In this document: positions 1 through 61,559 of the stretch, one piece after another
How positions within the stretch are numbered: the first letter of the stretch is position 1
Layout: the number at the start of each line of letters is the position of its first letter
Source of the DNA: a virus
Strand: one strand, 5' to 3'
IMG/VR virus record: IMGVR_UViG_3300046756_000171
Coordinates: 1 to 61,559 of that record
Length of the DNA stretch: 61,559 nt
Translations under genes and position numbers: made by a program
The notes under the pieces: model-generated
Told to the model about the DNA's origin: nothing
Database searches by the model: none
What the model saw: only the letters and a program-made list of their open reading frames with translations

Positions 1-186
1 TTCTTGTAATTCACTAGTTTTATAATGTTCATAATACCAGCTATTAGCTGAACTAGATGCTCGATGAAATTGTTCACCAGACCATTCTTCCCAACCATCC
101 CATTTAGGTTCTTGTAGTTTAGATTTAGGTGTGCGATATACTGAAGCTCTTGGCTTCTTTCTTTTCGCGGACTTTAATAGTCCCAT
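1..186 (-). CDS. Small conserved phage protein, 3' end outside window
   Basis: Partial gene: 62 codons read from an ATG at 184-186 to the window edge with no stop. A strong ribosome binding site (AAAGGAG) lies about 8 bases upstream and sets the start. The N-terminus is very basic (KSAKRKKPR), followed by a Trp-rich stretch (WDGWEEWSGEQFHR) and an aromatic SWYYEHYK motif. I recognise the type as a small hypothetical common in T4-like marine phages but know no function. It is the last visible gene of a minus-strand run beginning at the sigma70-type promoter near 779-807. Confidence 0.7.
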   Translation of the reverse strand, partial: MGLLKSAKRKKPRASVYRTPKSKLQEPKWDGWEEWSGEQFHRASSSANSWYYEHYKTSELQE

Positions 187-202
187 CAGAAATCTCCTTT
201 AG

Positions 203-397
203 TTATTTTTTGTATATATCATCTTTGGCAGAAAAATGGTTGTTTACGTCTAAATCTTGCAATTCTCGGTCAATCATGGATGATACATGACCAGCAAGTG
301 TGGACCATTTAGTTACTAAGATGTTTGCGAATTCTTGTTTGCTTTCGTGATCTAAACGAGCAATAGCTTCAACTACTTCTTCAGGTTGGAGTTTCAT
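203..397 (-). CDS. Small hypothetical protein (64 aa)
   Basis: Unrecognised acidic, probably helical 64-residue protein beginning MKLQPEEVVEAIARLD. The start ATG overlaps the stop of the preceding gene (TAATG arrangement), with an AGAGG ribosome site, so the two are translationally coupled. It lies 16 bases before the next small gene. Similar short proteins starting with a PEEV..AI..LD pattern are frequent in cyanophage-type genomes; no function can be stated. Confidence 0.65.
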   Translation of the reverse strand: MKLQPEEVVEAIARLDHESKQEFANILVTKWSTLAGHVSSMIDRELQDLDVNNHFSAKDDIYKK

Positions 398-747
398 TAT
401 ACTACCTCTTGGAAACCTAAACTAGCAACAACGTGTTTGTTACCTTCAGGATCAACAACAATATCACCTACTGAAGTTGAATACATAGGGTGAAGTCTTT
501 CAATATTTTCTTCTGGACCAATATTACCTACTTCAAATACACCTTCAAGACCTTTTTCAGTTGTAATATTTGAAACGTGTGTATAATAACCTTTGTCAAA
601 TGCTTCTTTAGCAATTGATGAAGTATTATCTCTAGCGAAAGACATATCAAGTTTAAGTTTATGCTTTTCTACAGAATTATGACCTTCAGCATTAATTTTA
701 TCATGCTCTGCTTTTGTAACGTGAATTTGAAAAAGTTTATATTTCAT
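397..747 (-). CDS. Hypothetical protein (116 aa)
   Basis: Unrecognised soluble protein, first gene of the small-gene run at the left edge. The C-terminal half has a motif seen in many small phage proteins: HPMYSTSVGDIVVD near residues 85-99, then VASLGFQEV near the end. Function is unknown. An AAAGGAG site lies upstream of the ATG, and a sigma70-like promoter (TTGACA-N17-TAAACT) lies immediately upstream, suggesting early expression. Confidence 0.7.
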   Translation of the reverse strand: MKYKLFQIHVTKAEHDKINAEGHNSVEKHKLKLDMSFARDNTSSIAKEAFDKGYYTHVSNITTEKGLEGVFEVGNIGPEENIERLHPMYSTSVGDIVVDPEGNKHVVASLGFQEVV

Positions 748-778
748 TTATTGCTCCTTTATTTCTAACTATACTTAC

Positions 779-807
779 AGTTTACAGTAAGACGTCTTAT
801 ATGTCAA
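779..807 (-). promoter_or_regulatory. Sigma70-type (early) promoter
   Basis: On the minus strand TTGACA (802-807) and TAAACT (779-784) are separated by exactly 17 bases, directly upstream of the small-gene run. The -35 is perfect; the -10 matches 4 of 6. Confidence 0.55.
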
Positions 808-820
808 CCTTATTCAGCAG

Positions 821-843
821 AAAAAAACCCTTAAAAATCAAGG
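821..843 (-). terminator. Probable weak intrinsic terminator after the halogenase operon
   Basis: Minus-strand hairpin CCTT-(7 nt)-AAGG followed by G and seven T residues, just past the halogenase stop. The stem is short, so the call is moderate. Confidence 0.45.
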
Positions 844-871
844 ACTTACATCTTTTTTTGTTTTTTGTTGA

Positions 872-2074
872 TTATTTTCCGGAAAAATGCTTGAAATTAT
901 CGTAGTAAAGAGCTAGTGTTGCCCATATAGCATCGGGATAAAGATTAGTATATTTGTTTCCAGTCTTTTTATAGTGTTCCCATACAGTTTCACTCATATC
1001 CATATCTGTATATTCTTTCCAGAAACTTGTATCGTCTCTGTTAGATAATGCATAGTGATGTAATATGTAATCACTGTTTTCTTTCCAAACTCTGTTGATC
1101 ATTCTATTGTAAGTTTTGGCGTCATATTCGCGTTTTAAGCACTCTACAAGCGTCGTAATACTATATTGTATCATAAACAATGCATTTGATTCTAATGGGT
1201 CAATAAAGCCTTGACTAAGCCCTATAGCAACCGTATTGCCTGCCCATGGATTCTTTAACCAATTAGGATTCCATTTAATATTACGTGGTTGTTTACCCAT
1301 AAATGGTGTTAAGTCTTTTGTATAATCTTTAAACTCTTCTAGTGCATCTTCATTACTAATATGCTTATCACTATAAACATAACCAGTACCAATACGAGAA
1401 GTTAATCCAATTTTAAATTGCCAACCATAATCACGTGCTATACTTCTAGTATATGGAATATGTTCATCTAGCTCAAATGGACAAACCCAAGCACTATTAA
1501 CTAAATGCTTTTCATGTATTTCTACTTCAGTTTTATCGTTGACAAATTGTCTACGGAAACCTGTACAATCAATATATAAGTCATACCCCTCTGGTCTTTT
1601 ATCAAGTGTTTGTACAATATGTTTTACATTTTTACAATTTTCTTTTACTATACGCCCTGCTTCTTCTGCGTGTAAATGATATGCTACTGCTCTCCAACCT
1701 TTGGCATCATACAGTTCTTCGTTGATTTGATGTTTTGTAACTTCACCTGCTTTGTACTTCTTATACCAATCTTCAAATACATTATCATCATTAAACCAAA
1801 ATGTAAATTTAAATTCATCACCATCTGGTTTATCCCAACCTTGTTTTATATTACCATGTTTGTGTATAGCATCACATTTTGACATCCATGTTTCTTCTTG
1901 CATACCAAAACTATCAAAAAAAGTTTTGATCATAGGAAGTGTACTTTCACCTACGCCAACTATTGGTATATCACTACTTTCAATAAGTGTTATATCATAA
2001 TCTGGAAAGTTATGCTCTATGTAACCAGCGGCCCACCATCCTGTAGTTCCGCCTCCTATGATGCAAATCTTCAT
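872..2074 (-). CDS. Flavin-dependent (tryptophan-type) halogenase
   Basis: Probable FADH2-dependent halogenase, a family that chlorinates or brominates an aromatic substrate through hypohalous acid and a catalytic lysine. Seen: FAD-binding GGGTTGW at residues 7-13, GESTLP at 42-47, the expected lysine in a HKHGNIKQGW context (K72), and the family signature GFIDPLES at 289-296. The usual WxWxIP motif is altered to GWQFKIG (217-223), so the substrate or activity may differ. At 400 residues it is shorter than typical PrnA/RebH enzymes (about 530). It follows rpiB by one base and ends the SbmA-RpiB-halogenase operon, which has a late-type promoter at 3587-3593. Similar genes occur in some cyanophages; the substrate is unknown. 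Confidence 0.85.
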   Translation of the reverse strand: MKICIIGGGTTGWWAAGYIEHNFPDYDITLIESSDIPIVGVGESTLPMIKTFFDSFGMQEETWMSKCDAIHKHGNIKQGWDKPDGDEFKFTFWFNDDNVFEDWYKKYKAGEVTKHQINEELYDAKGWRAVAYHLHAEEAGRIVKENCKNVKHIVQTLDKRPEGYDLYIDCTGFRRQFVNDKTEVEIHEKHLVNSAWVCPFELDEHIPYTRSIARDYGWQFKIGLTSRIGTGYVYSDKHISNEDALEEFKDYTKDLTPFMGKQPRNIKWNPNWLKNPWAGNTVAIGLSQGFIDPLESNALFMIQYSITTLVECLKREYDAKTYNRMINRVWKENSDYILHHYALSNRDDTSFWKEYTDMDMSETVWEHYKKTGNKYTNLYPDAIWATLALYYDNFKHFSGK

Positions 2075-2075
2075 A

Positions 2076-2570
2076 TTAATAATTTCCTATACTTTTTATT
2101 CTTGTCAGATGTCTACCACCTTCAAATTTAGTAGTAAAAAATGCTTCGCATATTTTCTTTGCTTGAGCAAAACTTGTAAAATCTGCACCTAGACATAATA
2201 CATTAGCGTCATTATGTTTACGAGACATTTCTGCTTCTTTTGCACTTCTACATACTACAGACCTTATTAACGGATGCCTGTTAGTTGCTATTGACATACC
2301 AAAACCAGATCCACATATAAGTATACCTGCATTGTATACTTGCCATCCTGCTTTTATTTTATCTGGTGTTGCATAATCTTTTAAAAAGGTTTCAACTACT
2401 CTAGGATAGTTAACTTTCTTTTTATCGTCGTATGGTCCAATATCATGAAATAGATCTATATTAAATCTAGTTCCAATATCGCTATCAATTGGTATTAACC
2501 ATTTTGATATTTGATCTTTTAGTTTCATTCCTCTATGGTCTGATCCTATGGATAGACTAATTTGTTTCAT
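2076..2570 (-). CDS. rpiB: Ribose-5-phosphate isomerase B
   Basis: Interconverts ribose 5-phosphate and ribulose 5-phosphate in the pentose phosphate pathway, supplying sugar for nucleotide synthesis during infection. Seen (numbered from the ATG at 2568-2570): GSDHRG at 9-14, the active-site cysteine in ICGSGFGMSIA (C86), and RKHNDANVLCLGAD with the conserved histidine H119. Length 164 residues is close to the family (about 150), with a small insertion around residues 45-75. A longer reading frame starts 25 codons upstream inside the transporter gene, but AGGAG immediately before the internal ATG and the family N-terminus favour the shorter start. It sits between an SbmA-like gene and a halogenase in one operon. 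Confidence 0.88.
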   Translation of the reverse strand: MKQISLSIGSDHRGMKLKDQISKWLIPIDSDIGTRFNIDLFHDIGPYDDKKKVNYPRVVETFLKDYATPDKIKAGWQVYNAGILICGSGFGMSIATNRHPLIRSVVCRSAKEAEMSRKHNDANVLCLGADFTSFAQAKKICEAFFTTKFEGGRHLTRIKSIGNY

Positions 2571-2586
2571 AAAATCTCCTATATGA

Positions 2587-3555
2587 TTATTTAGTGATTT
2601 GTCTTTCAAATTCACGTAAACGTTTATATACACTTGCAAGTTCAATAATTGTAGGCCATGCTTTAAGTAAATATTGCAACGACCCTTCTACTCTTCCAAA
2701 TGCTCTTATTATTTGTTGCATAACGCCAAGTGTTACTACACCTGCAACAATGGCTGGTGCTAAAAATACATAAGCAGATAAAACATTAGCTTGTAAATAA
2801 GCAATTCTGCCTACATTAAAATATAAGTATCTTATATATGATTTAAAGTGAATTGTTCTAACGTCTGCAAATAATTCATCTATTCTTTTTGGTCTAACAG
2901 TATCGTCATCTTCTGCTATAACTAGTATCTTTCTATAGGCCGCTTCTTTCTTTTGTAGATCATATTCTACACCCACGAGTCTAAGTAGCCATCCTAGTCC
3001 TATTAAAAATAAAGTGCCTCCAACACTCCATACTATTGCACCTGTAATCAATCCGTACTGCCAATCTCCAAAGAAGAAGATAGGAATACCTACTGATAGT
3101 CCAAATAATATAGGTACAAACTGTACCATAACCATAATTGATTCAATTAAACTTGTACCAAGTGATTCCATTATTCTGGAAAACTTAATAGTATCTTCTT
3201 GAACCCTTTGTGCCGCTCCTTCAATTTTTCTTGCTTTATCATATACTGCATGATACCACTCTACCATTGCAGTTCTCCATCTAAATAAGAAGTGTGCAGT
3301 AAAATAACTTATCACTACTGCTAGTGCGACATATATCATTGCTAGATATATAAAAGTTCCTAAACTAGCCCAATACTCACCTATAGTGATTGCATTAGGT
3401 GTAGCTAGTGCTTTTTGGATCATATCGTAAAATTGGCCAAACCATTCGTTTATTTTGACATCAATTTTAACTTGAACCCATAATGATGATAAAATGATTG
3501 CTGAACCTATCCAAGCCCATAGTAACCATTTTCTTTCTGTGTAAAATCTAAACAT
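2587..3555 (-). CDS. SbmA/BacA-like inner-membrane peptide transporter
   Basis: Resembles the SbmA/BacA family, proton-driven homodimeric inner-membrane proteins that import peptides such as microcins and related compounds. Seen: N-terminal membrane segment (about 12-28), the family-like INEWFGQFYDMIQKAL near residues 34-50, further hydrophobic segments near 65-90, 140-160, 170-200 and 250-285, and WRTAMVEWYHAVYD near 92-105. At 322 residues it is shorter than E. coli SbmA (406). It heads an operon with rpiB and the halogenase behind a late-type promoter. Host-derived acquisition is likely. It could supply nutrients or change envelope uptake; the role is inference. Confidence 0.75.
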   Translation of the reverse strand: MFRFYTERKWLLWAWIGSAIILSSLWVQVKIDVKINEWFGQFYDMIQKALATPNAITIGEYWASLGTFIYLAMIYVALAVVISYFTAHFLFRWRTAMVEWYHAVYDKARKIEGAAQRVQEDTIKFSRIMESLGTSLIESIMVMVQFVPILFGLSVGIPIFFFGDWQYGLITGAIVWSVGGTLFLIGLGWLLRLVGVEYDLQKKEAAYRKILVIAEDDDTVRPKRIDELFADVRTIHFKSYIRYLYFNVGRIAYLQANVLSAYVFLAPAIVAGVVTLGVMQQIIRAFGRVEGSLQYLLKAWPTIIELASVYKRLREFERQITK

Positions 3556-3586
3556 ATTGTTTTCCTTATATTATGTGGGTATATAA

Positions 3587-3593
3587 TATTTAT
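3587..3593 (-). promoter_or_regulatory. T4-type late promoter (SbmA-rpiB-halogenase operon)
   Basis: ATAAATA on the minus strand, about 31 bases before the SbmA-like ATG, divergent from the late promoter of gp14. Confidence 0.6.
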
Positions 3594-3618
3594 CCATATC
3601 ACATTGGGTTCAAAAGGC

Positions 3619-3625
3619 ATAAATA
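3619..3625 (+). promoter_or_regulatory. T4-type late promoter (gp14 operon)
   Basis: CATAAATAC on the plus strand; the predicted transcript start leaves a leader of about 16 bases containing AAGGA before the ATG at 3647. Confidence 0.7.
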
Positions 3626-3646
3626 CAACATAACAAGGAAAACCAT

Positions 3647-6075: not shown

Positions 6076-6120
6076 TTGTGATGACCCACACGACGATTGT
6101 TCACATTGGATAACAAAAAT

Positions 6121-18171: not shown

Positions 18172-21100
18172 TTACACATCAATGTAAGTAGCGATCACTT
18201 TAACTGTAGCTGTACCACTTGTCGGAGTGTAAGTTAATTCAACTTGGTTTCCGTTCATAGTAACACTTGCATCACCAATTAAGTCTGCACCAGTATAAAC
18301 CATTGCGTACTCTGTAATGTATGCAGTACTACCATCATGTACTACTAAAGCTTCACGTGTCTCATAGTTACCTGCGCCGTCATCAACCTGCATGATGTAT
18401 TTCGCTGAACGATACAACGCACCGTTGAATGAATCAACTGTAGTTGAACCGGAAGCTGATACTTCACCTTTTTGTACGTATGCTTTAATATCAGCCGCTA
18501 GTTTGTCGAATGATACTGAGTTAGCAAGTAGTACTGGGTTAAGTCCTGCACCTGGTGATAACACAACAATTTGTGTACCAACTGGTACTGCTGAGTTAAA
18601 CGTGATAGTTTTCGCCGCACTATCGATAGTGTAGTGAGTTGATGGATCCTGAATAACACCACCAACAAAAACCATTGCTTGGTCTTGTGTTGTAGTGAAA
18701 GTTAATGAATACTGCGTTGCAGATCCATCACCATTAATTGTCATTCTCTCTTGTGTTGAGAAAACATTTAACGGGTTTTTCAGTTCCATACCGTCTTCAT
18801 TTGAGTTAACTGCTAATACGTATCCGTCTTTGTTAGTGTAATCTGTATCAGATACATCTGTTAAGTCTAGGACTGATTCGTTAGTGTCAACCGAGATAAC
18901 ACCTGTGCTGTTATCGTAGCTTACTAAGCCTGCGCCTGCAACGTCATTAACACTAATTGCCGCTCTGCTTCTGGCATCAGTGTAGTATAGGTTTGAACCT
19001 TCAGCTAAGTCATCTGTAGTATTAGTAGAGATGTCTTGTGCTGAAATTGCCGCATCTAGTACTGCTTTAGATACTGCGTCACCTGGATTGGCCGCTGTTC
19101 CTAAACCTGTTACTAGTTGACCGCCCATAGCAATATCGCCACTCATTGTTCCACCAGCAAGTGCTAGTTTAGTTGCGATTACTGTGTCTTGAGCCGCATC
19201 AGCCGCCGCAAACTCAGTACGGATAGCCGCCCTGTCAGTTGTCGCCGCCGCGTGGTCTGTGTCGTTGTCATTTACTTCGCTTGTTAAAGCTGTACTTAGG
19301 TTAGTAATGGCAGTTGCGTTTGCCGCTACTGTACCTGTTAGTGTGCTGTCTGCATTTTGGAAAGCAGTAACGATTTCAGTTAATGAATCTAGCGCCGCTG
19401 GATCCGTGTTACTGATAATATCGTTAACTGTGACTACTAAAGCGTCTGTACGTGTCACTTCTGTTGCCAAGTCTGTTGCTACTGTTGAAATAGACGTTGC
19501 ATTAGCCGCTTCCGCCGCTGTTGCTCTAGCTGTTTCTGTAGCAATATCTGCCGCATTAGCTTGTTCTGCAGTTTGAGCTCTAGTTACTTCAGTTGCTAGG
19601 TTTGTAGTTAACACACCTTCTGCCGCTGTAGCTCTAGTTTCTTCTGCTTTAACAGCCGCATCTAACTTGTTATCAGCATCTTTCAATGATGATGCAGTTG
19701 AGATGTAGTCTGCTGTTGCATTTGCTGAATATGTACCATCAACACCTAAACCTGCGCCAGCTTGTGTAGCTGTAATTTCAGTTAAGTTGTCTGCGATATC
19801 AGTTGCATTTGCCGCTTCTGCCGCTTGAGCTCTTGTTGACTCATTTGCGATAGCTGTTGCATTTGCTTGTTCAGCCGCTCTTGCTGTAGTTGCTTCTGCT
19901 GTAATTGCGTTTGCATTCGCTGATTCTGCCGCTCTAGCTGTACTTGCTTCAGACGCTATGTCTGCCGCGTTAGTAGAGATGTCAGATGCATTAGTTGCGA
20001 TTGCTGTTGCATTAGTTGCAATGTCTGCTGTATTACCAGAGATTGCTGTTGCATTTGCTGAAACATTTGTAGTTAGTGTTGCTTCTGCCGCTTCAGCTCT
20101 TGTTTTTTCAGCTAGGATTGCCGCATCTAATTTAGAGTCTGCATCATGTAATGATGAAGCTGAATCAATTGCGTGTGTTCCTGAGTGTGCTGAGTAAGAA
20201 CCGTCACTTTGTAAACCTGCACCAGTTTCTACTGCATCAATTGCGTTATTAACAGAAGTTAAATCAGCCGCTGTACCTGAGTTCAGTTCGTTGATCGCTT
20301 CTGATAACGTTTGTGCAGTTGTCTGTAGTGCCGCACTACCTGCTTGTGTTTCTAAAGTAGATACTTTGCCTTCTTCAGCTGTTAGACGTGTGTCTAATGC
20401 TGTGTCAGCCGCCGCAAATTCAGTACGAATTAACGCTCTGTCTGTTGAAGCAGTATTACTTAGACTTGTGATTGCACCATTGATTGTACTATCAGCACTT
20501 TGGAATGCTGAAACAATTTCAGTTAGTGAATCTAACGCCGCCGGATCCGTATTAGTTAGGATTGAATCAATTCTAGCTGTTTCCGTGTCGATGTTGCTTT
20601 GAAGTGTCGCTTCAGCTGTTGTTGCTCTAGCTACTTCGTTATTGATACTTGTTAAGTTAGTAGCAATATCGTTAGTGTTAGTTGCAATGTTAGCTGTGTG
20701 CGTTGAATCAGCAGTAGTTGAACGAGATACCTCGTTTGCTATTGCTGTTGCGTTTGCCGCTTCTGCCGCAAGTGCTCTTGTTTCTTCTGCTGTTACCGCT
20801 TGTGCGTTAGCAAGTTCTGCCGCTCTAGCTGTTGACGCTTCATTTGAAATAGCAGTAGTTAGAGTTGCGTCACCCGCAATTCTGTCTGCTGTTTCTGTTG
20901 CAATGTCACTTGCGTTAGTTGCAATGTCTGTCGCGTTAGTTGCTATATCACCAGTGTTAGCTGTAATAGCTAGTGTGTTTGCCGCTTCTGCCGCAAGTGC
21001 TCTAGTCTTTTCAGTTAGAACTTCTTGGTCAGTATAAGCTTCTGCTGTTGCTTCTGCACCCGCTTTAGCTGTTGCAATTCTATCTGTTACAGTATTACCT

Positions 21101-22902
21101 GCTGTACCGTCTAGTGTTGCATCACCCATTAGTGCTACGTCTGCCGCATCACTGTCTGCGATTGCATTTGCTTCTGCCGCATCTGCTTTTGTAGTTGCAT
21201 CAGCCGCCGCAGTTGAAATCGCGTCTGCTTCAGCTGTATCAGCATATGCTTGTGCTGATGCTAAAGTTGATGCATCTCCTGCTTGTCTGTTTGTTGTTTC
21301 TGCCGCTATTGCCGCCGCATTAACACCTTCAGCCGCTTGTGCTCTTGTAGACTCCGCATTGATATTTGTTTGTAATGCCGCGTCACCAGTTGTGATGTCT
21401 GAAGCATTCTGCGAAATAGCAGTTGCGTTTGCGTTAATTGCCGCTGTTGCCGCTGAATCACCAGCTTGGAAAGCTGTAACGATTTCAGTCAGTGAGTCAA
21501 GTGCCGCTGGGTCTGTGTTAGTTAGAATGTTATCAATTCTAGCTGTTTCAGTTGCAATGTCAGCTGTATTAGTTGCGATATCAGCTGTGTTAGTTGCAAT
21601 ATCTGTAGTGTTAGTATCAATCTCACCGTGAAGTTCGTTGATAGCCGCACCAATTGATGTTGCTGTAGTATCAAGTGGTGTATTTGCTACATCACCAACT
21701 ACTGTTTCTAACGCACTAATATCTGAAGCATTTGTAGTAACTTTAGCGTCAACTACTGCTACCGCTGTATTGATAGCCGCTGTCTCTGCCGCTGATACTG
21801 TATCTGCGTGTGCTTCAGCCGCCGCTTGTGCCGCGTCTGCTTTTGTAGTTGCATCTGCCGCCGCTGTAGCGATTGCATCTGCTTCTGCTGTATCTGCGTA
21901 TGTTTGTGCTGATGCTAAAGTTGTTGCATCTGCTGTTGCAAAGTCTGTTCTTACCGCTGTATCTGCATTTGCTCTTGCAGTCGCTTCGTTTGCAATGTCT
22001 TGTGCATTTGCTAATTCAGCTCCTGATGCACGTGTAACTTCTGCCGCTAAGTCGGTTTGTAGTTGTGAAACTTCACCGTCTGTAGCAGATATTTCCGCCG
22101 CCAATCCAGTTGTTAGTGTAGTAATGTCACCTTCATTAGCAGTTACTCTAGCATCAAGTGCATTTTCAGCCGCTCTAGCAGTTGCCGCTTCTGTTGAAAT
22201 ATCAGATGCGTTAGTTGCTTCAGCGCCTTGTGCTCTTGTTGCTTCTGTACTAATTGCAGTTGCATTTGCTTGTTCTGCAGTTTGAGCTCTAGCTGTCTCG
22301 TTTGTAATTAAAGTCGAGTTAGCTGTTATTGCCGCAGTCAATGCACTATCTTGAGATTGAAATTCTGCAACAATTTCAGATAAACTGTCTAATGCCGCAG
22401 GGTCAACGTTTGATATAATGTTTGTTATTTGAGTTTGTAATCCAGCATCTGCCGCTTTATAAGCTGTATCTAGAGCGGATTCTGCCGCTGTAGCTCTGCT
22501 TATTTCACTTGCGATGTCCGTCGCATTTACACCCTCTGCCGCTGTCGCTCTTGACGTTTCAGCCGCGATATCATTTGCGTTCTGAAGTTCAGCCGCACGT
22601 GCTATCACTGCTTCTGCCGCCACTGCTGTAGCAATGTCTGCCGCTACTGCTGATTGAGCTTTTGCATCTGTAAAGTATTCATTACTTGAACCTTCGGTAA
22701 TATCATCAGTTGTAAATGAACCAATAAAATTTGCCGCTGTAATACTTTTCAGAGCTGAAGTCGCATTGTCGTGTAAAAGGAAAGCATCTAAGTTGTTTGC
22801 TGATGTAGTTGCAGTTTGGCCTGAAACTGAACTCGCATCAAGTTTGGTATCGATAACCGCTTGGTTAGCCAACGCCGGACTCTTAATTTGTCTAAAAGCC
22901 AT
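18172..22902 (-). CDS. Giant Ala/Thr-rich repetitive fibre protein
   Basis: 1576 residues from the ATG at 22900-22902 (GGAGA just upstream; an in-frame start six codons earlier is less likely). Almost the whole chain is Ala/Thr/Glu/Asp/Asn with motifs such as TRAxAAEAANAxAIxxE, giving a very long predicted trimeric coiled coil. Four copies of a DPAALDSL(S/T)EIVxxFQ module (coding near 22404, 21506, 20540 and 19398) break the rod every 300-380 residues. The C-terminal tip is beta-rich (YTDARSRAAIS; GDGSATQYSLTF...VGGVIQDPSTHY). The gene uses GCG/GCC alanine codons before G/C-starting codons far more than expected for an AT-rich genome. Confidence 0.8.
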   Translation of the reverse strand: MAFRQIKSPALANQAVIDTKLDASSVSGQTATTSANNLDAFLLHDNATSALKSITAANFIGSFTTDDITEGSSNEYFTDAKAQSAVAADIATAVAAEAVIARAAELQNANDIAAETSRATAAEGVNATDIASEISRATAAESALDTAYKAADAGLQTQITNIISNVDPAALDSLSEIVAEFQSQDSALTAAITANSTLITNETARAQTAEQANATAISTEATRAQGAEATNASDISTEAATARAAENALDARVTANEGDITTLTTGLAAEISATDGEVSQLQTDLAAEVTRASGAELANAQDIANEATARANADTAVRTDFATADATTLASAQTYADTAEADAIATAAADATTKADAAQAAAEAHADTVSAAETAAINTAVAVVDAKVTTNASDISALETVVGDVANTPLDTTATSIGAAINELHGEIDTNTTDIATNTADIATNTADIATETARIDNILTNTDPAALDSLTEIVTAFQAGDSAATAAINANATAISQNASDITTGDAALQTNINAESTRAQAAEGVNAAAIAAETTNRQAGDASTLASAQAYADTAEADAISTAAADATTKADAAEANAIADSDAADVALMGDATLDGTAGNTVTDRIATAKAGAEATAEAYTDQEVLTEKTRALAAEAANTLAITANTGDIATNATDIATNASDIATETADRIAGDATLTTAISNEASTARAAELANAQAVTAEETRALAAEAANATAIANEVSRSTTADSTHTANIATNTNDIATNLTSINNEVARATTAEATLQSNIDTETARIDSILTNTDPAALDSLTEIVSAFQSADSTINGAITSLSNTASTDRALIRTEFAAADTALDTRLTAEEGKVSTLETQAGSAALQTTAQTLSEAINELNSGTAADLTSVNNAIDAVETGAGLQSDGSYSAHSGTHAIDSASSLHDADSKLDAAILAEKTRAEAAEATLTTNVSANATAISGNTADIATNATAIATNASDISTNAADIASEASTARAAESANANAITAEATTARAAEQANATAIANESTRAQAAEAANATDIADNLTEITATQAGAGLGVDGTYSANATADYISTASSLKDADNKLDAAVKAEETRATAAEGVLTTNLATEVTRAQTAEQANAADIATETARATAAEAANATSISTVATDLATEVTRTDALVVTVNDIISNTDPAALDSLTEIVTAFQNADSTLTGTVAANATAITNLSTALTSEVNDNDTDHAAATTDRAAIRTEFAAADAAQDTVIATKLALAGGTMSGDIAMGGQLVTGLGTAANPGDAVSKAVLDAAISAQDISTNTTDDLAEGSNLYYTDARSRAAISVNDVAGAGLVSYDNSTGVISVDTNESVLDLTDVSDTDYTNKDGYVLAVNSNEDGMELKNPLNVFSTQERMTINGDGSATQYSLTFTTTQDQAMVFVGGVIQDPSTHYTIDSAAKTITFNSAVPVGTQIVVLSPGAGLNPVLLANSVSFDKLAADIKAYVQKGEVSASGSTTVDSFNGALYRSAKYIMQVDDGAGNYETREALVVHDGSTAYITEYAMVYTGADLIGDASVTMNGNQVELTYTPTSGTATVKVIATYIDV

Positions 22903-23008
22903 AGAGATTTCTCCAATCAAATATATTTGATTTGCCTATAATCTTTATAAGCAAAAGAATACGTACATAAAGTAAGTATTCTGCATAGGCCGTAAAACCC
23001 ATACAATG

Positions 23009-28608: not shown

Positions 28609-28633
28609 GACACTCTCCTTTTTACAGTTAAGT

Positions 28634-28682
28634 GCGTTCCTTCGGTTCATTACCTACTTCCGTCTCTTACGAGATGAACGAT
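28634..28682 (-). promoter_or_regulatory. Glutamine riboswitch, gene-proximal copy
   Basis: Minus strand: CGTTCATCTC-GTAA-GAGACGGAAGTAGG, then ACCGAAGGAACG. The outer helix CGTTC/GAACG, the inner TCTC/GAGA hairpin, and the conserved CGGAAGTAGG and CGAAGGAACGC boxes are all present. This matches the glnA/Downstream-peptide family that binds L-glutamine. It ends 25 bases before the peptide ATG. Confidence 0.85.
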
Positions 28683-28688
28683 GATAAT

Positions 28689-28740
28689 GCGTTCCTTCAG
28701 CCTTAGCTTACTTCCGTCCGAAATCTACAGGATGAACGAT
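28689..28740 (-). promoter_or_regulatory. Glutamine riboswitch, gene-distal copy
   Basis: Second aptamer of the same class: CGTTCATCC... GGACGGAAGTAAG... CTGAAGGAACG, with helix CGTTC/GAACG and inner TCC/GGA. It is separated from the proximal copy by about six bases, so the two form a tandem array. Confidence 0.8.
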
Positions 28741-28776: not shown

Positions 28777-29757
28777 CTACAAACATAAACTTTCGTATTG
28801 TAGCATTAACCTATCTTCTTGCCCTATACCATATTTTCCACCTACAAAAAAGGGCTTTGCCATATGATATCGTTTATTATCCCAAGATATTAACTGTCCT
28901 GGTTTCCCAAAATCTAATACTTTATTAAGTGATAATCCATGGAACTTTTCTATTGGTAACTGTGACTGATATTCTGTTGCAATTAGTTGCATCCAAGTAT
29001 CTTCATCAAATGGCTTACCTGTTAAGTTTCTTATATACTCACCAAACATTTCAAATTTATCGCCTTTAGAAAAAGTTATAACTGGTTTTTTCTTTTCATC
29101 TAAATTATCTAAATTATTTGTAATATCGTAATATGTACTATATGGAAACCATTGATCAAAAATAATTGTTGCTTTTCCGGGTTGAGCATCTAAGTTAACT
29201 AATCCTTGATGTGCGTGTTTTGCTCCTCCGCCTATTGGAAAATACTCTTCTAATTTATAATTTGGATGATGTAATGGTCTTGGATTTTTCTTTTTTAATT
29301 TAGTTAAAACATCTTGTCCATCGCAATGTATTTTTAAACCTTGGCTAAAATTATGAAATGCAATATCTGTAACTTTTGCAGGTCTTCCTATCTCTTTAAA
29401 CTTATCTTCCATTATGTTAACAATAGTAGTTGACCAATCATTTAATCTATCAACAAATTCAAACTCTGATGTTCCAGTTACAAAGTCTAGTTGTACTCTT
29501 TTACCTTTGTCATGTGTTTCTTTACTACGTACAGATGATACAATTTGACACCAATCTAATCTTTTATTCACTGTGGATCTTGTAAAATTTGCTTCTTCAA
29601 TTCTTACATATTCTTTATCATTGTTGTACTCAATTTTTTTTAGCACATCGTCAAATAAACGTTTATAACCGTTTTTAATAAACAGTAATTGTTCTGCATT
29701 AAAAAAGTCTGGGTGCTCTATTGATTCGTATAAATCTTCGTTATAAAATTTAGACAT
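28777..29757 (-). CDS. 2OG-Fe(II) oxygenase-like protein
   Basis: 326-residue protein with a recognisable iron triad: H144-C-D146 (LKIHCDGQDV), H298 (DNKRYHMAKPF) and the probable 2-oxoglutarate ligand R316 (EDRLMLQYE). A strand HQGLVNLDAQPGKATIIFDQW lies between, as in cupin-fold oxygenases. It is the third oxygenase-like gene in the window and is unlike the other two outside the motifs. Substrate unknown. Its start overlaps the methyltransferase stop by 8 bases; the riboswitch array lies 37 bases after its stop. Confidence 0.6.
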   Translation of the reverse strand: MSKFYNEDLYESIEHPDFFNAEQLLFIKNGYKRLFDDVLKKIEYNNDKEYVRIEEANFTRSTVNKRLDWCQIVSSVRSKETHDKGKRVQLDFVTGTSEFEFVDRLNDWSTTIVNIMEDKFKEIGRPAKVTDIAFHNFSQGLKIHCDGQDVLTKLKKKNPRPLHHPNYKLEEYFPIGGGAKHAHQGLVNLDAQPGKATIIFDQWFPYSTYYDITNNLDNLDEKKKPVITFSKGDKFEMFGEYIRNLTGKPFDEDTWMQLIATEYQSQLPIEKFHGLSLNKVLDFGKPGQLISWDNKRYHMAKPFFVGGKYGIGQEDRLMLQYESLCL

Positions 29758-30643
29758 TTACTATCTCTATATTTGGAAAAGGTTCGTCCTCAATTCCTGT
29801 AATGTGTTTTTCATAATCAATTTTTAATTTTATGGTTGGAGATAATATATCTTTACCGCTAATTAATCGTTGATAATAACTGTGTGGTAAATCTTCTCTT
29901 GAAAGTTTATTACTAATATGTAAATTATTATGTAGTTTAATATCAAAATACAGAATTAAATATTCGTCATCATCTGGTATTCTATTAAGCGAAATTTCTT
30001 CACAATAATTTTTTAGTTGTCCAGGAGAATCAAACTCTAATATACATTTTGTTTCTGTTATTTTTTCACCAAACTTATATAACCTATCATTTATAATATT
30101 GTCTGTTATATTAATAGAATCTAATGTTGGCATTTCTAACTTATCTAGTACTGTATGATATTTTCCTAGTAACTCTCGATTTACTTTTACAGGAGTATCA
30201 TGTACATAAAGTTTAAATGATTCTGGAATAGCATCTGCTTTATATTTTTCTTTTAAATTTAAATAATCAAATATTAATCTACTTTCAAAAATATGATCTC
30301 CTATGCCTTCGCAAACTACTAAATCTACAGTATCACCTTTAAATTCGTTAAGAAACTCATCCGATCTTTTATTGTGTATAATACAACAGTCCTCTACGCC
30401 ATGTTCCTTTACCATTTGCTCTATTACTTTTATTAGCTTAGGCTCTTGTTCTACTAAATGTACTGTTTCTGCACCTGCTTTAGCACATTCTATTCCTAGT
30501 ATACCTGTTCCTGCTCCCAAGTCAATGACTATATCGCCAACACAAACTTTTGCCCTGATTGCCTTCACAAAGTTATTAAGCCTGTGAGTATCAGATAGCA
30601 TATAAAAATGACTATGTGTTTGTGTGTATTTTCCTCTAAACAT
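29750..30643 (-). CDS. SAM-dependent methyltransferase, protein-arginine-methyltransferase-like
   Basis: Class I methyltransferase: motif I VIDLGAGTGILGIECAKAGA (39-58), acidic loop VEQEP binding the SAM ribose, and VDLVVCEGIGDHIFE, which resembles the first part of the double-E loop of arginine methyltransferases. The C-terminal half is beta-rich, as in that family. Target unknown; it could be a host or virion protein. It is coupled to the oxygenase-like gene downstream and lies 5 bases from a small gene upstream. Confidence 0.7.
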   Translation of the reverse strand: MFRGKYTQTHSHFYMLSDTHRLNNFVKAIRAKVCVGDIVIDLGAGTGILGIECAKAGAETVHLVEQEPKLIKVIEQMVKEHGVEDCCIIHNKRSDEFLNEFKGDTVDLVVCEGIGDHIFESRLIFDYLNLKEKYKADAIPESFKLYVHDTPVKVNRELLGKYHTVLDKLEMPTLDSINITDNIINDRLYKFGEKITETKCILEFDSPGQLKNYCEEISLNRIPDDDEYLILYFDIKLHNNLHISNKLSREDLPHSYYQRLISGKDILSPTIKLKIDYEKHITGIEDEPFPNIEIVNV

Positions 30644-36063: not shown

Positions 36064-36258
36064 CTATTCTTTAGGGGCCGCACCATATTGTAACTGAACA
36101 TCTTCTAGTTTATCTTTATGTTCTGCACGTGCTAATTCTCTTCTGTTTCTCATTTTATTAAGATGTCTAAGTGTTAGTTTAGGTCTACGTGTATCATCTA
36201 GATCCCATTGGTTAGACTTATCATCTTCTGCATTCTGAGCTAATTCATTAAATCTCAT
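36064..36258 (-). CDS. Small basic head-operon protein (64 aa)
   Basis: Unrecognised charged protein (MRFNELAQNAEDDKSNQWDLDD; then RHLNKMRNRRELAR). It overlaps the end of gp20 by 11 bases and lies where T4 has gene 67, but gp67 is acidic and this protein is not. A role in prohead assembly is possible by position only. Confidence 0.6.
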   Translation of the reverse strand: MRFNELAQNAEDDKSNQWDLDDTRRPKLTLRHLNKMRNRRELARAEHKDKLEDVQLQYGAAPKE

Positions 36259-37918
36259 CGCCAGTTCCTATTCCATCATCATTTAAATCAGGTGTGTCAA
36301 CATCTGCACCAGCATCATCTCCTGGTTCTGCATTTTCTGCATCTACATCAGTTGGTTCAAAACTTTCAACATCACTGTTCCTAATACCTAATCCTCCTAG
36401 ATCACCTGTTGCACTACTAGTAGGCTGATTGCCTGCTTGGTTTTCTTCTTTCCACAATCTTTCGTTAGCTACTCTTTCTTCTTCAGTTAATCCTAGATAT
36501 CTATCTAATAAGAATCTTCTTGATAGATATGGAACACCTTCAAGTTGTCCAAATAGTTGAGCTCGTTGTGCATCAATCTCAATAGTTCTATATTGTGAGA
36601 AGCTTTGTGGTTCTACAAAGTTTAAATCAAATAAACTAGCACTAACGTCTAGTCCTCTGTGTTTACAAAATAATTTAAATTCTCTATCTAAAGAGTTTTG
36701 TAAAGTTGCTTGTAATCTTTCACAATATTTTGCAAATCTAAATTCTTGAATCATTGCAGTACCAACTCGTCCGTCATTAAATGCCGCGATACCATCTTCA
36801 CTACCTGTTGGTAGATAAGAAGTTGGAACACGTAAACCACGCATTAGTTTATTGTTAAAATATTTTAAGTCATCTATTTCACCTAAGTTTTCACCACCTG
36901 GTAAAACTTCAACTTTACTTCCTCTTCCTTCTGCTGTTTGTGCAAAGAAATAATCTTCCATAATTGATAACGGATTATAGGCCGCATCAACAACCTTAGT
37001 ACCACCACCACTCATATTTGGAATACGTGTTTGGTGTACTTCGTTTTTAACTCTTTCTACAAAGCCCATAGCTTTGTGTGCTGGCATATTACCTACGTCA
37101 ATATAGAACACACGTCTTTCTGGTGCTCTTTGTACACGATAGATAATAATACTATCTTCTAATAATTCTTTTTGTTTGTATACTTTAAATACTGCTTCTA
37201 ATATACTGTTACCAAATGGCCAGTTATTATTCATGCCATCACTTAAACTAACATGAACCATATGTTTTGAATCTACTGCAAACTCTGAACTCATACTTGA
37301 TGAGTTATTTGCAGTTACAATTCCTGCATTACCTTTACCTACACTATAACCTGTTGTAGGATTAATAGTAGTTGAGTCTGTATGTTTTTTAGTATCTGTA
37401 GCTACAAGGTCTTGTAAATTTAGAGCAATGTTTTTTACAATATATTGATCAATTTTTCTACCTTCACTTTCGTTAACGATAGACTTTGCAACATCACCTG
37501 GTTGTACCCAAATAAGTTTGTAAGTTTCTGGATCTCTAATAAAAAATTGATCACCATATTTTATACACGATCTAAACATAGTAAACATTCTACGTTCAAA
37601 ATCATTTATTCTAATCCATTGTTTTAATGTAGTTTCAATAGCATTTACTTCTGAATCTGTTGGCTCTGTTTTATACTCAATTTTAAAAGGAAGTTTTGAT
37701 TCTGCATCTGTCTGTGTACTAAATTCTGCAATAGTATCTAATGCCGCATTAATTTCACTGTCTTGATCCATTTGATCATACTGTGTATATCGCTCAATAC
37801 GATTTGGCTGACCACTGTATACTTCAGGTAGCCAACTCTGCCAACGATTAGTTTTTGTGTTTCCTGCAGATGTACTACCACCTACGTTATATCTTGTAAA
37901 ATGCTTTTTCCAGCTCAT
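36248..37918 (-). CDS. 20: Portal vertex protein gp20
   Basis: Dodecameric portal through which DNA enters and leaves and on which the prohead starts. 556 residues (T4: 524). Recognised by the N-terminal LPEVYSGQPNRIERYTQYDQMDQDSEINAALD, RAPERRVFYIDVGNMPAHKA, KVEVLPGGENLGEIDDLKYFNNKLMRGLRVP and SFSQYRTIEIDAQR. The C-terminal roughly 50 residues are acidic and Gly/Asp-rich. It has a late promoter 19 bases upstream and a ribosome site AAAGGAAAT. Confidence 0.95.
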   Translation of the reverse strand: MSWKKHFTRYNVGGSTSAGNTKTNRWQSWLPEVYSGQPNRIERYTQYDQMDQDSEINAALDTIAEFSTQTDAESKLPFKIEYKTEPTDSEVNAIETTLKQWIRINDFERRMFTMFRSCIKYGDQFFIRDPETYKLIWVQPGDVAKSIVNESEGRKIDQYIVKNIALNLQDLVATDTKKHTDSTTINPTTGYSVGKGNAGIVTANNSSSMSSEFAVDSKHMVHVSLSDGMNNNWPFGNSILEAVFKVYKQKELLEDSIIIYRVQRAPERRVFYIDVGNMPAHKAMGFVERVKNEVHQTRIPNMSGGGTKVVDAAYNPLSIMEDYFFAQTAEGRGSKVEVLPGGENLGEIDDLKYFNNKLMRGLRVPTSYLPTGSEDGIAAFNDGRVGTAMIQEFRFAKYCERLQATLQNSLDREFKLFCKHRGLDVSASLFDLNFVEPQSFSQYRTIEIDAQRAQLFGQLEGVPYLSRRFLLDRYLGLTEEERVANERLWKEENQAGNQPTSSATGDLGGLGIRNSDVESFEPTDVDAENAEPGDDAGADVDTPDLNDDGIGTGDEI

Positions 37919-49873: not shown

Positions 49874-50493
49874 TGACTGTTAAAAATAAAGTAAAATTAG
49901 TAATGAAACAAAAGGGTAAACCTTTTAGTATGAATTTTGGCATATTAAAACCATTAAACGAAATAGGTGGGGTTTTATTTCCTTACACTCCTACTATTCA
50001 GTTTTCACATAATGCTAACTACGGAGCCTACGAAGTACAAGGATCTCAATACCAACAAAATTATTATATGAATACTGCTAACCCTACTATCAACGTTACT
50101 GCATTGTTTTCTTCAAACACTATAGAAGAAGCAAAATATACTGCGGCGGCAATACATTTTTTTAAATCTTGCACCAAAGGTGATTTTGGTGAACAACGAT
50201 CAGAGACGGCTGGAACACCACCACCTATTTTAAAATTTAGTGCATATGGAATTGTTCATGCAAGTTATGTGCCAGTAATAATGAGAAACTTTAACTACAC
50301 ACTAGTTGAAGACAGTGACTATGTTGATGTAGATATTGGAAATGATCAAAGTACTACAGTTCCAACATTATTATTAGCTTCAATAGATTTAGTTCCGCAA
50401 CTTCCTCCAGCTAATATTAAAAAAGAATTTAATATTCAAACTTACTCAGGCGGACATCTTTTGAAAGGTGGAAATAAAGGAGGATTCATTTAA
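49873..50493 (+). CDS. Baseplate tube-cap protein, gp48/gp54-like
   Basis: 206 residues. PYTPTIQFSHNANYGAYEVQGSQYQQNYYMNTANPTINVTALFSS (about 36-80) matches the conserved FPYTP...Y...NP.I.VTA core of T4 gp48/gp54, which close the baseplate centre and start tube polymerisation. Shorter than either T4 protein (364 and 320 residues), lacking the long N-terminal part. Next gene starts at its stop (TAATG). Confidence 0.65.
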   Translation: MTVKNKVKLVMKQKGKPFSMNFGILKPLNEIGGVLFPYTPTIQFSHNANYGAYEVQGSQYQQNYYMNTANPTINVTALFSSNTIEEAKYTAAAIHFFKSCTKGDFGEQRSETAGTPPPILKFSAYGIVHASYVPVIMRNFNYTLVEDSDYVDVDIGNDQSTTVPTLLLASIDLVPQLPPANIKKEFNIQTYSGGHLLKGGNKGGFI

Positions 50494-53245: not shown

Positions 53246-53246
53246 T

Positions 53247-55219: not shown

Positions 55220-55226
55220 ATAAATA
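55220..55226 (+). promoter_or_regulatory. T4-type late promoter, predicting a leaderless gp25 mRNA
   Basis: CATAAATAG on the plus strand. With T4 spacing (start six bases after the last A) transcription would begin at the A of the gp25 ATG (55232). Confidence 0.65.
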
Positions 55227-55231
55227 GTTGT

Positions 55232-55609
55232 ATGAGCGAGATTATAGGATATACAACAGTTGAACAGGCTTATACTAGCAAGGGACTTTCTGGTCTTGAA
55301 CTAGCTAAACGTGACCTGTTAAACCATTTTCATATACGTAAAGGAGAGAAGTGGACCGACCCTACTTTTGGTTGTGACTTGCCTTTTTATGTATTTGAAC
55401 CATTAGATGATGATACTATTGAGTCTATACGCAATGAAGTATTTGCTGTAGTAAACTACGATCCTCGTTTTACAGTTAACGATACAAATGTTCGTGTAGT
55501 ACAAGATGACCATTATGTTACAGTTAATGTAAATTTAACATACCTACCTACTACAACAGCAATAGATTTGCAAATTAAGTTCGATAGGGAACAGGACGCA
55601 GAGATTTAA
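55232..55609 (+). CDS. 25: Baseplate wedge protein gp25
   Basis: 125 residues (T4: 132). HIRKGEKWTDPTFGCDLPFYVFEPL matches the gp25/GPW core (TRKGSRPFDPEFGCDLSDQLFE), followed by DPRFTVNDTNVRVVQDD and a C-terminal strand. It seeds sheath assembly on the baseplate. No ribosome site precedes the ATG, and no other start fits, so leaderless or coupled initiation is likely. One base separates it from gp6. Confidence 0.92.
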   Translation: MSEIIGYTTVEQAYTSKGLSGLELAKRDLLNHFHIRKGEKWTDPTFGCDLPFYVFEPLDDDTIESIRNEVFAVVNYDPRFTVNDTNVRVVQDDHYVTVNVNLTYLPTTTAIDLQIKFDREQDAEI

Positions 55610-55610
55610 C

Positions 55611-58600: not shown

Positions 58601-58712
58601 TATGTTTGAGTTTTTACCAAACAGCGACGAACTTATTATTCCCGACGTAAGTGTTAACGATATTGACATTATTCAGAATATAACAGATGAAAACATTAGA
58701 GCAGGAACATAA
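55611..58712 (+). CDS. 6: Baseplate wedge protein gp6
   Basis: 1033 residues (T4 gp6: 660). N-terminal FQAFDYDTIRTAMVDYVRNTYPENYNDWIESAEFVSLLDVVAQFGHNLAYRVDLNARNNFLTTAEKQESVFKLAEFLGYSPRRNVPA is the conserved wedge-dimer domain. The baseplate-J-like region includes PKNYASQDRMITAQDYNTIL, and the C-terminus ends with a gp6-type ETFYFTELAAYVHKKLAGVLSSFVIVPQ. About 350 extra residues lie in the middle. Follows gp25 as in T4-type baseplate operons. Confidence 0.92.
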   Translation: MAQKTRQNKIFAAEDYTVVYESYVNANFQAFDYDTIRTAMVDYVRNTYPENYNDWIESAEFVSLLDVVAQFGHNLAYRVDLNARNNFLTTAEKQESVFKLAEFLGYSPRRNVPAYGEMKVVAVKTNEAVIGSAGTSLGGKEIKYEVTNDVNNLDDFITIVNSTLQNSNQYGSPNKSVVLNNIRTDFYDLNNTPNQIKFDVEGVVTGSTRTFNIISSDYDETNLTFKEKSPDPVSNIGMYFKNDGRGINSANTGFFFGVKQGELSYQDFAIEDPIDSNVLDITIPNINNTDCFVQNISTTGNLIKEWTKVKDVNSNIVYNNLASGIRDIFSVKTRENNEISILFPDRTFGNIPKGTIRVWYRPSENSSYVVRPDDLTNKKINVNYTGRDGNTYNAVFTLQLKQAITNATSSESLDSIRENAPKNYASQDRMITAQDYNTILSNNTGGVVKVKSVNRTFSGHSRYSKFIDPTGEYSNLYLQGDDARLYQDERLHTSSTSGSYNSSQLFNKYVKDIINNDEYINLYYTKYRSAFSGLRTQHNYTADSFVWQSPSQTVSGVKTGYITDTNNDIVRVGDTVDSYMQYITPGALLKFTTSSGSKWAKVTDVFNYGLGIEGTGTSAGEPTGVQNDGIGSIILDTDIPSNSTLDIIYPALSRNFSTSERNIIIAYIDSKRSFSIKYNYKNKSWEVDTSPETFSTNTQFPDNFDLEDASWSIYFNYNNQQYDIHLRTIRFNFTSNSVRLGNIQNEMEISSFTKKSKRDCIQALGVSNNAIAKLGKFYVYGYDQLGLNTYRLVLVDGNADSRPDNPEVFFDTVGSTQISVDDTFYTGKENMNFEWEHIASDNQVVDPSFTNVIDVFALTTAYDTEYKNWLLGTIPNMPLPPTSYELGQMFASSGEKKAMSDTIVYKPIRYKCLFGANAENALKARFRVIKLIGSNITDTDLKNKTVESIKEFFDSSNWDFGETFYFTELAAYVHKKLAGVLSSFVIVPQGSGSVFGDMFEFLPNSDELIIPDVSVNDIDIIQNITDENIRAGT

Positions 58713-58715
58713 TAA

Positions 58716-61559
58716 ATGTCTAAAAAGAAAGCAGGCCCAAACAAGGTAAACAAAATTAAAACTAGTAACTTTTTACCTAATGTTTTTCAAACAGACATTA
58801 ATAAAAGTTGGTTAGATAGTACCCTTGACCAAATGGTTTCAAAAGGACCGCTAGGACAAGTTAATGGATACATAGGAAATAATAGTGGAAAGTATTCAGT
58901 ATCTACAGACAAATATATAACTCCTAGTGTTGATGCTACTATAAGAAACAAAACTCAACTAGCACCTGCTATAGTATCTTATAATAATAACCAAGACTTA
59001 ACTAACAAAATTTCTTTTGATGATATAACATATGCAATAAATCAAAACTTTAATGCTTACAATTATAATGCGTCTTATTCATCAAGTAAATTTACATTTA
59101 GTCCTCCAATTAATGTTGACAAATTTTTAAACTTTAAAAATTATAGATGGGTTGAAGAAATGCCTGTATACGAAAGTGTTTATACAGGAGCGAACAAAGA
59201 TCCTCTTATTGATATGTTGCGTGTGCCAGCATATAAACTAACTGACGATAATAATTCGTTTGTACTAGAAGTTGGCATGATTATAAAATTTAGTGGAACA
59301 GGTTGGGATTCAACTGTAAAAGATAAAACTTATCTAGTAACTGCAAATAATCCAGAAACAAAATTAGAATTATATAAAGACTCAAATGGAGTTAAAGTTT
59401 ACAATAGTTATAGTAAACTATCAAAAAGAAACTATGGTGTATGGGATACTGGTGAACCTGTAAGAGTTTCTCCAAATACTGCAAACAGTTATTGGGCTAC
59501 TAGTAATCAATCGCCACAAGCATTAGTAGATGCTTATAATGCTGATACAAATAGACTTCCTTTGTTTGACGGATTTATTTTTGGAAACGAGGATAGCAAT
59601 CCTGCACAGTTTAAAGAAAATACTTTAATAAGATTTACTGCTGGTTGGGTTCACAATGGTCAAACTACAAACACAGAATCAATTTATATTACACAAGTAG
59701 ATGCATCAACAAAAGATGTTTCATTTAAAAAATTAGTTGATGCTACATTTAGTAATAATAAATGGACAGCAACAAATGTAGCAGGTATAACTGCTAACGA
59801 ACTTGCTTTAATTAATTCACTAGATGGACACGATGAAGATAACGAAAAATGGGATCACCAGGCTCCACTAACACCAAACAAAGATTATATTGTTATAGAT
59901 AGAGGAGATGTATATCAAACTGCTTGGAGTAGAACAAATAGCTGGGTTAACTTTGCTACTATTAATAAAGTACAAGAGTTAATTCCAACACATGATTTTA
60001 CTGAAATATTAAATGAAAATAGAATTGCACAGAGACCAATTATAGAATACAATGAAGAATTAAATTTATGGAACTATGCAGAAAAATCATTGGTAGCAAA
60101 TAAAGTAGGTAAAATTGACTATGGTGTAGTAAGTGGAGAAGATTTATCTGTTCTTCCAATTGATGCTACATATGTTTATATAGATAATAGTGATACTAAA
60201 GTTTATCAAAAAACAGCTTTGAACTTTGTTGCTATAAAAACTTTAGCAGATAATGATGTTATGCAAATTAACTCTGTAGCAAATCCTGCTTACGCAGATT
60301 GGAGATATGCAGATGTTTATTATAAAAATAATACAATTACATTAGGTCAACAAAAAACAAAAATTAATCAGTATCCATTATACAAATTTTATAACTGTGA
60401 AGGTATTCCTTTAGAAGATATATACTCTACAGGATTTGCCGGTGAAAAGATTTTTGGATATAAAGTTGGAACAGGAACATTTGTTGATCCTGAAATTAAT
60501 CATGTATTAAGTTATAAAGATACACCTAAGGGTGCAGAGTATGAATTTGAAAATTTCTTACTAACTAAAAACTACAAAAAATCATATGACGATACAATAC
60601 AAAATATAAGATATGCAAAACCATTAGCAGGTTATAATCATATTAAAAACTCAGGAAACTTAGAAACATTTTATAAACCATCAGGAACTTTAACAGGCGC
60701 CAAAGAAACTAAACAGTATGAAATTACAATACCCGACACAGCATTAACTATACCAGTTGGTAAAAATAATTGGAGACCCGAAGAAGAATATAATGTAATT
60801 GTTAAAGGTAATGTAACTGTATTAGCTAAATGCAACAACGATGGCACTTACAACGAGTCTGTTAAAAAGACTAGACATTTAGTTGGTGTAGAACAAACAT
60901 TTACATTAAATAATTTAACAGGAAAAACTATTACATTTCTAGCAGGACCAGTTGATATTGAGAATCCTGGAGGTAATGCAATACCAGATATGACTATAAC
61001 TAGAAATGGTTCCAAAATTACAATAGTTACTGGATCAAACAGCGATGGTGATCACTTTACTATACTTGCAGACAATACTGAAATAGCATCTATGACAATT
61101 TCAAAAGATTGGGATGAACTGTTTTACAATGTTAAAGTTAACGGTAATCCAGTTCCAACATCTTTGGTAAGTGCAAATGCTACTACTTTAGTTATTGATC
61201 AAAGTTTATTTACTACAGGAGATTTAGTTGACTTTGTTTGGACAAATAATGATGCAAGTAATCCAACAACAAATATTAGTTTTCCAGAAACACTAGAACA
61301 TAATGCCAATAACAAACGTATATATGAATTTACTATGAGTGAAACAATCGATCATTGGTTAGACAAACTTACAGTTAATCCAGGTTACTCTGGAACTATG
61401 TTTGGTGATAATAATTATTCTAGCATTGTTCATACTCCATATTACGGAGGTACAATGTTTGTGCATCCAGACATTAGTATAATGCATGATATAAATTACT
61501 CAGATAAAGATTTAAACATAACTGCAATATTAAATGAACAGGCTAATGATTGGTATGCA
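58716..61559 (+). CDS. Huge baseplate/virion structural protein, 3' end outside window
   Basis: 948 codons from the ATG at 58716-58718, open to the edge. N-terminus MSKKKAGPNKVNKIKTSNFLPNVFQ, then INKSWLDSTLDQMVSKGPLG and YRWVEEMPVYESVY. It is Asn/Tyr/Thr-rich and beta-structural. In marine T4-like phages the gene after gp6 is a very large baseplate protein replacing T4 gp7/gp8/gp10; this matches in position and N-terminal pattern. Four bases separate it from gp6. Confidence 0.75.
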   Translation, partial: MSKKKAGPNKVNKIKTSNFLPNVFQTDINKSWLDSTLDQMVSKGPLGQVNGYIGNNSGKYSVSTDKYITPSVDATIRNKTQLAPAIVSYNNNQDLTNKISFDDITYAINQNFNAYNYNASYSSSKFTFSPPINVDKFLNFKNYRWVEEMPVYESVYTGANKDPLIDMLRVPAYKLTDDNNSFVLEVGMIIKFSGTGWDSTVKDKTYLVTANNPETKLELYKDSNGVKVYNSYSKLSKRNYGVWDTGEPVRVSPNTANSYWATSNQSPQALVDAYNADTNRLPLFDGFIFGNEDSNPAQFKENTLIRFTAGWVHNGQTTNTESIYITQVDASTKDVSFKKLVDATFSNNKWTATNVAGITANELALINSLDGHDEDNEKWDHQAPLTPNKDYIVIDRGDVYQTAWSRTNSWVNFATINKVQELIPTHDFTEILNENRIAQRPIIEYNEELNLWNYAEKSLVANKVGKIDYGVVSGEDLSVLPIDATYVYIDNSDTKVYQKTALNFVAIKTLADNDVMQINSVANPAYADWRYADVYYKNNTITLGQQKTKINQYPLYKFYNCEGIPLEDIYSTGFAGEKIFGYKVGTGTFVDPEINHVLSYKDTPKGAEYEFENFLLTKNYKKSYDDTIQNIRYAKPLAGYNHIKNSGNLETFYKPSGTLTGAKETKQYEITIPDTALTIPVGKNNWRPEEEYNVIVKGNVTVLAKCNNDGTYNESVKKTRHLVGVEQTFTLNNLTGKTITFLAGPVDIENPGGNAIPDMTITRNGSKITIVTGSNSDGDHFTILADNTEIASMTISKDWDELFYNVKVNGNPVPTSLVSANATTLVIDQSLFTTGDLVDFVWTNNDASNPTTNISFPETLEHNANNKRIYEFTMSETIDHWLDKLTVNPGYSGTMFGDNNYSSIVHTPYYGGTMFVHPDISIMHDINYSDKDLNITAILNEQANDWYA

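Follow-up and report, generated by a model that had tools for sequence, protein, structure and literature searches.

Why should a five-base word be missing from tens of kilobases of phage DNA? The question is raised by the virus record IMGVR_UViG_3300046756_000171, whose 61,559 nucleotides (hereafter the window) were analyzed over their whole length and for which a preliminary description had claimed that GCAGC and GCTGC, together GCWGC, do not occur. The window is a fragment of a T4-like myovirus, with a Gp20 portal, a Gp23 capsid protein, a gp15-like sheath stabilizer and an SbcCD-like nuclease. GCWGC is one among at least six purged words, and we consider it likely that this T4-like marine phage lineage has been purged of the recognition sites of several host Type II restriction systems.

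Results

An exact string search of the window returned no GCAGC and no GCTGC, in agreement with the claim and not with a normal number of sites. The comparison of 5-mers with Markov and codon-preserving models, which the preliminary description had proposed, gave the same picture. A maximal-order Markov model expects 88.8 GCWGC sites (z -12.2), making GCWGC the most depleted of all 5-mers; the roughly 30 sites earlier estimated from composition were an underestimate. Synonymous-codon shuffles, which preserve every protein and its codon usage, place 112.7 +/- 4.9 sites in the open reading frames (ORFs) of the window, with a minimum of 98 among 200 shuffles, and show GCSGC to be in excess there (135 versus 25.8 +/- 4.8). 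By string search GCCGC occurs 126 times and GCGGC 12 times; with so few GCGGC on the plus strand, the statement that both are very common on both strands was slightly overstated.

The absence extends to the closest large relatives, a 124,177-bp contig (G001), which matches at 99.95% over the first 54,477 bases of the window, and a record of 221,643 bp (G003), which aligns with the greater part of the window in segments of 77-93% identity. At 0 of 89 expected sites in the window, 0 of 228 in G003 and 0 of 147 in G001, GCWGC lies within the range that defines elimination of a Type II site (observed/expected below 0.1, more than 15 sites expected). Codon-preserving shuffles of G003 expect 254 +/- 7 sites, and GCSGC reaches 319 there against 184 expected.

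Alanine codons carry the same signature. All 133 that precede a codon starting with GC in the window are GCG (126) or GCC (7), with no GCA or GCT, whereas before other codons GCA (844) and GCT (469) make up 1,313 of 1,457 (90%), the remainder being GCC (71) and GCG (73). The preliminary description had recognized this switch and had located GCSGC mainly in alanine-rich fibers at 18-23 kb; a fiber-like, alanine-rich ORF of 1,582 amino acids (18172-22920, minus strand) indeed holds 69 of the 138 GCSGC sites and displays the switch to GCG or GCC most clearly. Its example of GCG GCG GCA codons near 50142 was likewise found on inspection of the plus strand at 50140-50151 (GCGGCGGCA), where GCGGC replaces GCAGC.

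The preliminary description had named GCWGC as a lost word. Its loss stands, but RCATGY, RCASTGY and GCWWGC had been overlooked and are also absent from the window, and RCAATTGY is likewise at zero. In G003, palindromic degenerate words scanned de novo included further losses (observed/expected): GCWWGC (4/104), RCTWAGY (0/83), RCASTGY (0/75), RCATGY (0/66), RCAATTGY (0/22) and WAAGCTTW (0/25). Codon-preserving shuffles of this record expect 104 RCATGY, 67 RCTWAGY, 46 RCASTGY and 27 RCAATTGY, none of which is found; expectations for the longer words vary with the model (RCATGY, 66 by order 3 and 218 by order 2), and for RCATGY zero is observed whichever is used. Since variants that differ in their flanks or center are retained in G003 (YCATGR 88/76, RCATGR 194/141, RCTSAGY 47/38), the lost words are sharp-edged, like the recognition sites of enzymes. 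Six order-3 simulations each of the window and of a sister record (G010) contained at most one lost word of this kind, and the same scan found none in a 50-kb stretch of phage T4. We also observed that the asymmetric word ACGCT/AGCGT is depleted in G003 (L081-L092), at 27 versus about 102.

The distribution of the loss was mapped on a tree of the Gp20-like portal gene (36248-37918, minus strand; PF07230, E 8e-108), which also served as the query that yielded the 80 portal relatives compared. Nine of these, at 97-100% identity and from other metagenomes, contain a single GCWGC site against 119 expected, located in the 8,347-bp contig L003; absence in the clade of the window is near-total, not absolute. 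A count in relatives had been suggested as a check, and against the zeros of G001 and G003 it gave mostly normal numbers in sister phages (about 85% portal identity), the 29 loci at 74-86% identity holding 535 sites versus 578 expected. Four loci at about 70% identity (L075, L077, L078 and L080) again have no GCWGC, with most other words near normal. Two changes of state for GCWGC are forced by well-supported branches of this tree, and the loss arose at least twice in the family. The set of lost words in G018 (L042) comprises RCASTGY (1/69) and TACGTA (0/30), with RCATGY and RCTWAGY normal. TCGA and GATC are nearly lost from L073 and L074 (records G030 and G031), with TCGA at 6/122 in G030 and, in its locus L073, TCGA at 2/39 and GATC at 5/53; depletion of both words is seen in HTVC008M, a SAR11 phage, as well. 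GCWGC is only partly depleted in G008 and G018, which may reflect a loss under way or decay after the pressure ended. In G008 (the record of L017), 17 of the 38 residual sites fall within 58709-62648, in two neighboring large ORFs of the fiber region, as if this stretch had recently been acquired from a non-avoiding phage.

Codon alignments of 77 orthologues between the sister G010 and G003 show how sites were lost. None of the 66 GCWGC sites in G010 remains in G003; two non-avoiding phages of higher identity have 65 of 92 sites in common. The changes at lost sites are synonymous in 33 of the 66 cases. Among 39 single-base differences, 32 affect the central W (A>G 23, T>G 5, T>C 4), two are C>T and none is G>A. 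The changes fall mostly at the central base and few are C>T, which rules out deamination of methylated cytosine and with it mutagenesis at a methylated site, the alternative put forward in the preliminary description. The pattern fits selection for any cheap escape. We infer the direction of change by comparing the states seen in the sister and in more distant relatives rather than from ancestor reconstruction.

Word loss in unrelated marine phages shares one of these boundaries. Pelagiphages related to HTVC010P retain RCATGY at 0.06 of expectation, with YCATGR at 1.05 and RCATGR at 0.94, the same edge as in G003, and HTVC008M has 7 CASTG sites of 120 expected. Apparent losses of TCGA and CGCG in simulated HTVC008M sequences were discarded as an artefact, the order-3 simulation keeping 4-mers. 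GCWGC is kept in HTVC010P- and HTVC008M-like phages at 1.7 times expectation; it is avoided in none of 42 testable HTVC010P-like loci, in none of 61 HTVC008M-like loci and in 3 of 80 HMO-2011-like loci. When the viral contigs of each family were pooled (L153-L312), 30 of 56 testable palindromic hexamers in HTVC010P-like and 40 of 64 in HMO-2011-like phages fell below 0.25 of expectation, a loss far broader than that in the family of the window.

The T4-like nature of the window is seen in the Gp20 portal (PF07230), the Gp23-like major capsid protein (PF07068; 32090-33253, minus strand) and a prohead protease S77 (PF03420). It is AT-rich (34.5% G+C), with a strong alanine codon preference. The host is probably an alphaproteobacterium, since G003 carries a permuted tmRNA (L089:2260-2645; predicted tag AEDNFAIAA) that matches the alphaproteobacterial model RF01849; this is a class-level assignment at best, from one tmRNA in a relative, and SAR11 is a candidate only. 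Eleven tRNA genes lie in L087 and L089 of the same record. Judged by the capsid, the nearest isolated relatives are phages of Sinorhizobium, Vibrio and Pseudomonas, none of which exceeds 70% identity. Two other host clues were uninformative: a scan of genome contigs for the tmRNA tag matched clostridia only, and a tryptophan halogenase-like ORF (872-2074) has relatives in cyanophages and pelagiphages that are distant, at about 33% identity or less among the matches listed. This ORF stands in tandem with a short ORF (2076-2645) and an SbmA/BacA-like transporter ORF (2587-3555) on the minus strand (872-3555). Two tandem glutamine riboswitch aptamers (RF01739) occupy 28631-28740 of the minus strand, and the same pair is found in G003 (L083:19153-19262). 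Radical-SAM proteins number at least eight in a variable region of G003 (L088-L091), and five of them have SPASM domains; their genes adjoin those for IF-3, IMPDH, ClpXP-like proteins and SAM decarboxylase. No integrase was among the Pfam families listed (25 of 67 for one protein set).

DNA methyltransferases of the families PF00145 (C5), PF01555 (N4/N6) and PF02086 (D12) had no match in the records searched, an absence that is provisional, the contigs being fragmentary; protection of the phage by a DNA methyltransferase of its own is not supported by this search. A class I methyltransferase-like ORF (29750-30643, minus strand), with a homologue in G003 only among the records compared, is unlikely to be one, as its matches are RsmD/PrmA-like and it does not contain the motif [DNSC]PP[YFWH]. 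PADLOC matches to viperin and IetA in G003 resemble generic radical-SAM and AAA matches.

Discussion

The loss of GCWGC is palindromic, strand-symmetric and lineage-specific, with at least two origins, which makes host restriction of the GCWGC type (TseI/ApeKI/BbvI-like) its best-supported explanation. The preliminary description had proposed a BbvI/TseI-type host system, and in this it holds up; it captured only one of at least six purged motifs. We propose that hosts with Type II restriction enzymes have repeatedly exerted selection on the lineage and that, given no detectable DNA methyltransferase, its defense would consist in having no recognition sites. Genomes with a GCWGC, RCATGY, RCASTGY, RCTWAGY, GCWWGC or RCAATTGY site would run a risk of being cleaved in every infection, and mutations that destroy a site, which are often synonymous, would be fixed until zero sites are left. 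The words missing from each lineage would then document which restriction specificities it had met. Word boundaries common to unrelated phages also favor an agent that resides in hosts. Several points weigh on the other side. No cognate host enzyme was found, no host genome having been searched for one; the HTVC010P- and HTVC008M-like families show no avoidance of GCWGC; the sharp edge shared between families is that of RCATGY only; and, with palindrome loss so broad in HTVC010P- and HMO-2011-like phages, part of the overlap in words may be coincidental. SAR11, a candidate host group, is moreover reported to be without restriction-modification systems (PMC9516812), yet strong word loss is seen in pelagiphages and in this family.

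An agent carried by the phages themselves is improbable in our judgment. Site-specific endonucleases encoded without a methyltransferase could attack host or rival phage DNA, the missing words being their targets and absence providing self-protection. Such self-protection needs an absence as total as that observed (0 of about 228 in G003), and a divergent nuclease could lie concealed among the G003 genes at 146-221 kb, for many of which the records compared contain no known relative. However, PADLOC detected no restriction genes in 85 G003 proteins; a conserved HNH nuclease gene was dismissed as the cause because avoiders and GCWGC non-avoiders alike carry it; and a GIY-YIG nuclease gave no match above the cut-off. 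Six or more separate nucleases would be required, and the RCATGY boundary would still be common to unrelated phages. We give slightly less credence to modification-dependent restriction (BisI-like, Type IIM), in which GCWGC in phage DNA would be methylated by a host enzyme and the modified sites then cleaved in other strains. Enzymes of the BisI family cut methylated GCNGC (PMC4926085), and the Type IIM sites listed in PMC6286503 include GCWGC and GCNNGC. The retention of GCSGC, and its excess, argues against GCNGC in its entirety being the target, and the other five palindromic words would have to be accounted for in the same way.

Processes that involve no cutting fare worse. Decay without selection, by deamination of a methylated C in GCWGC to T, is very unlikely: the word is a known m5C target in bacteria (PMC8936443), but 32 of the 39 differences lie at the centre base, which cannot be methylated, and GCSGC has taken the place of GCWGC in G003. 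The idea is refuted for GCWGC, the longer words having few single changes. Least credible of all, and close to negligible, is a bias in codons, tRNAs or composition, or an assembly artefact. Low G+C content and the strong alanine codon preference could suggest it, but alanine codon choice flips before GC only, codon-preserving shuffles expect 113 sites in the window and 254 in G003, sister phages of similar base composition have normal GCWGC, and the window agrees with nine contigs from other metagenomes.

If host Type II restriction was indeed the agent, phage genomes could be used in reverse, to recover which restriction specificities uncultured hosts possess. For this purpose the present lineage supplies at least six words; GCWGC was lost a second time separately, and near relatives serve as controls. 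The contrast between strong word loss in these phages and the reported lack of restriction systems in SAR11 makes it directly testable which restriction enzymes are carried by which marine bacteria.

Among characterized enzymes, TseI and ApeKI read GCWGC, NspI reads RCATGY, TspRI reads CASTG and Cac8I reads GCNNGC. These recognition words equal or contain purged words; to our knowledge no enzyme has exactly RCASTGY, RCTWAGY, GCWWGC or RCAATTGY as its site. Virulent double-stranded DNA (dsDNA) phages are known to eliminate orthodox Type II sites, with 7.1% of tested phage-site pairs eliminated (Rusinov et al. 2018, PMC6286503). Our case resembles theirs in its palindromic Type II-like words, observed/expected ratios below 0.1 with expectations above 15, and a dsDNA tailed phage; it differs in that their host enzymes are known, while here the enzyme is deduced, and in that at least six words are lost together, one of them being absent from a 221-kb record in which about 228 copies are expected. 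Depletion of GANTC has been published for pelagiphages, with no restriction systems known in SAR11 (PMC9516812). The marine alphaproteobacterial setting and a word loss that splits phage clades are common to both cases, but GANTC is normal in the clade of the window (287 versus 302) and other words are lost. The Pelagibacter phages HTVC008M, HTVC010P and HTVC019P and the SAR116 phage HMO-2011 are also similar in having several palindromic words at or near zero, although they lose many more words than the family of the window. Restriction-site elimination itself is thus a known phenomenon; what is new here is that it is complete over 221 kb, that it involves a set of several motifs and that this set turns over between lineages.

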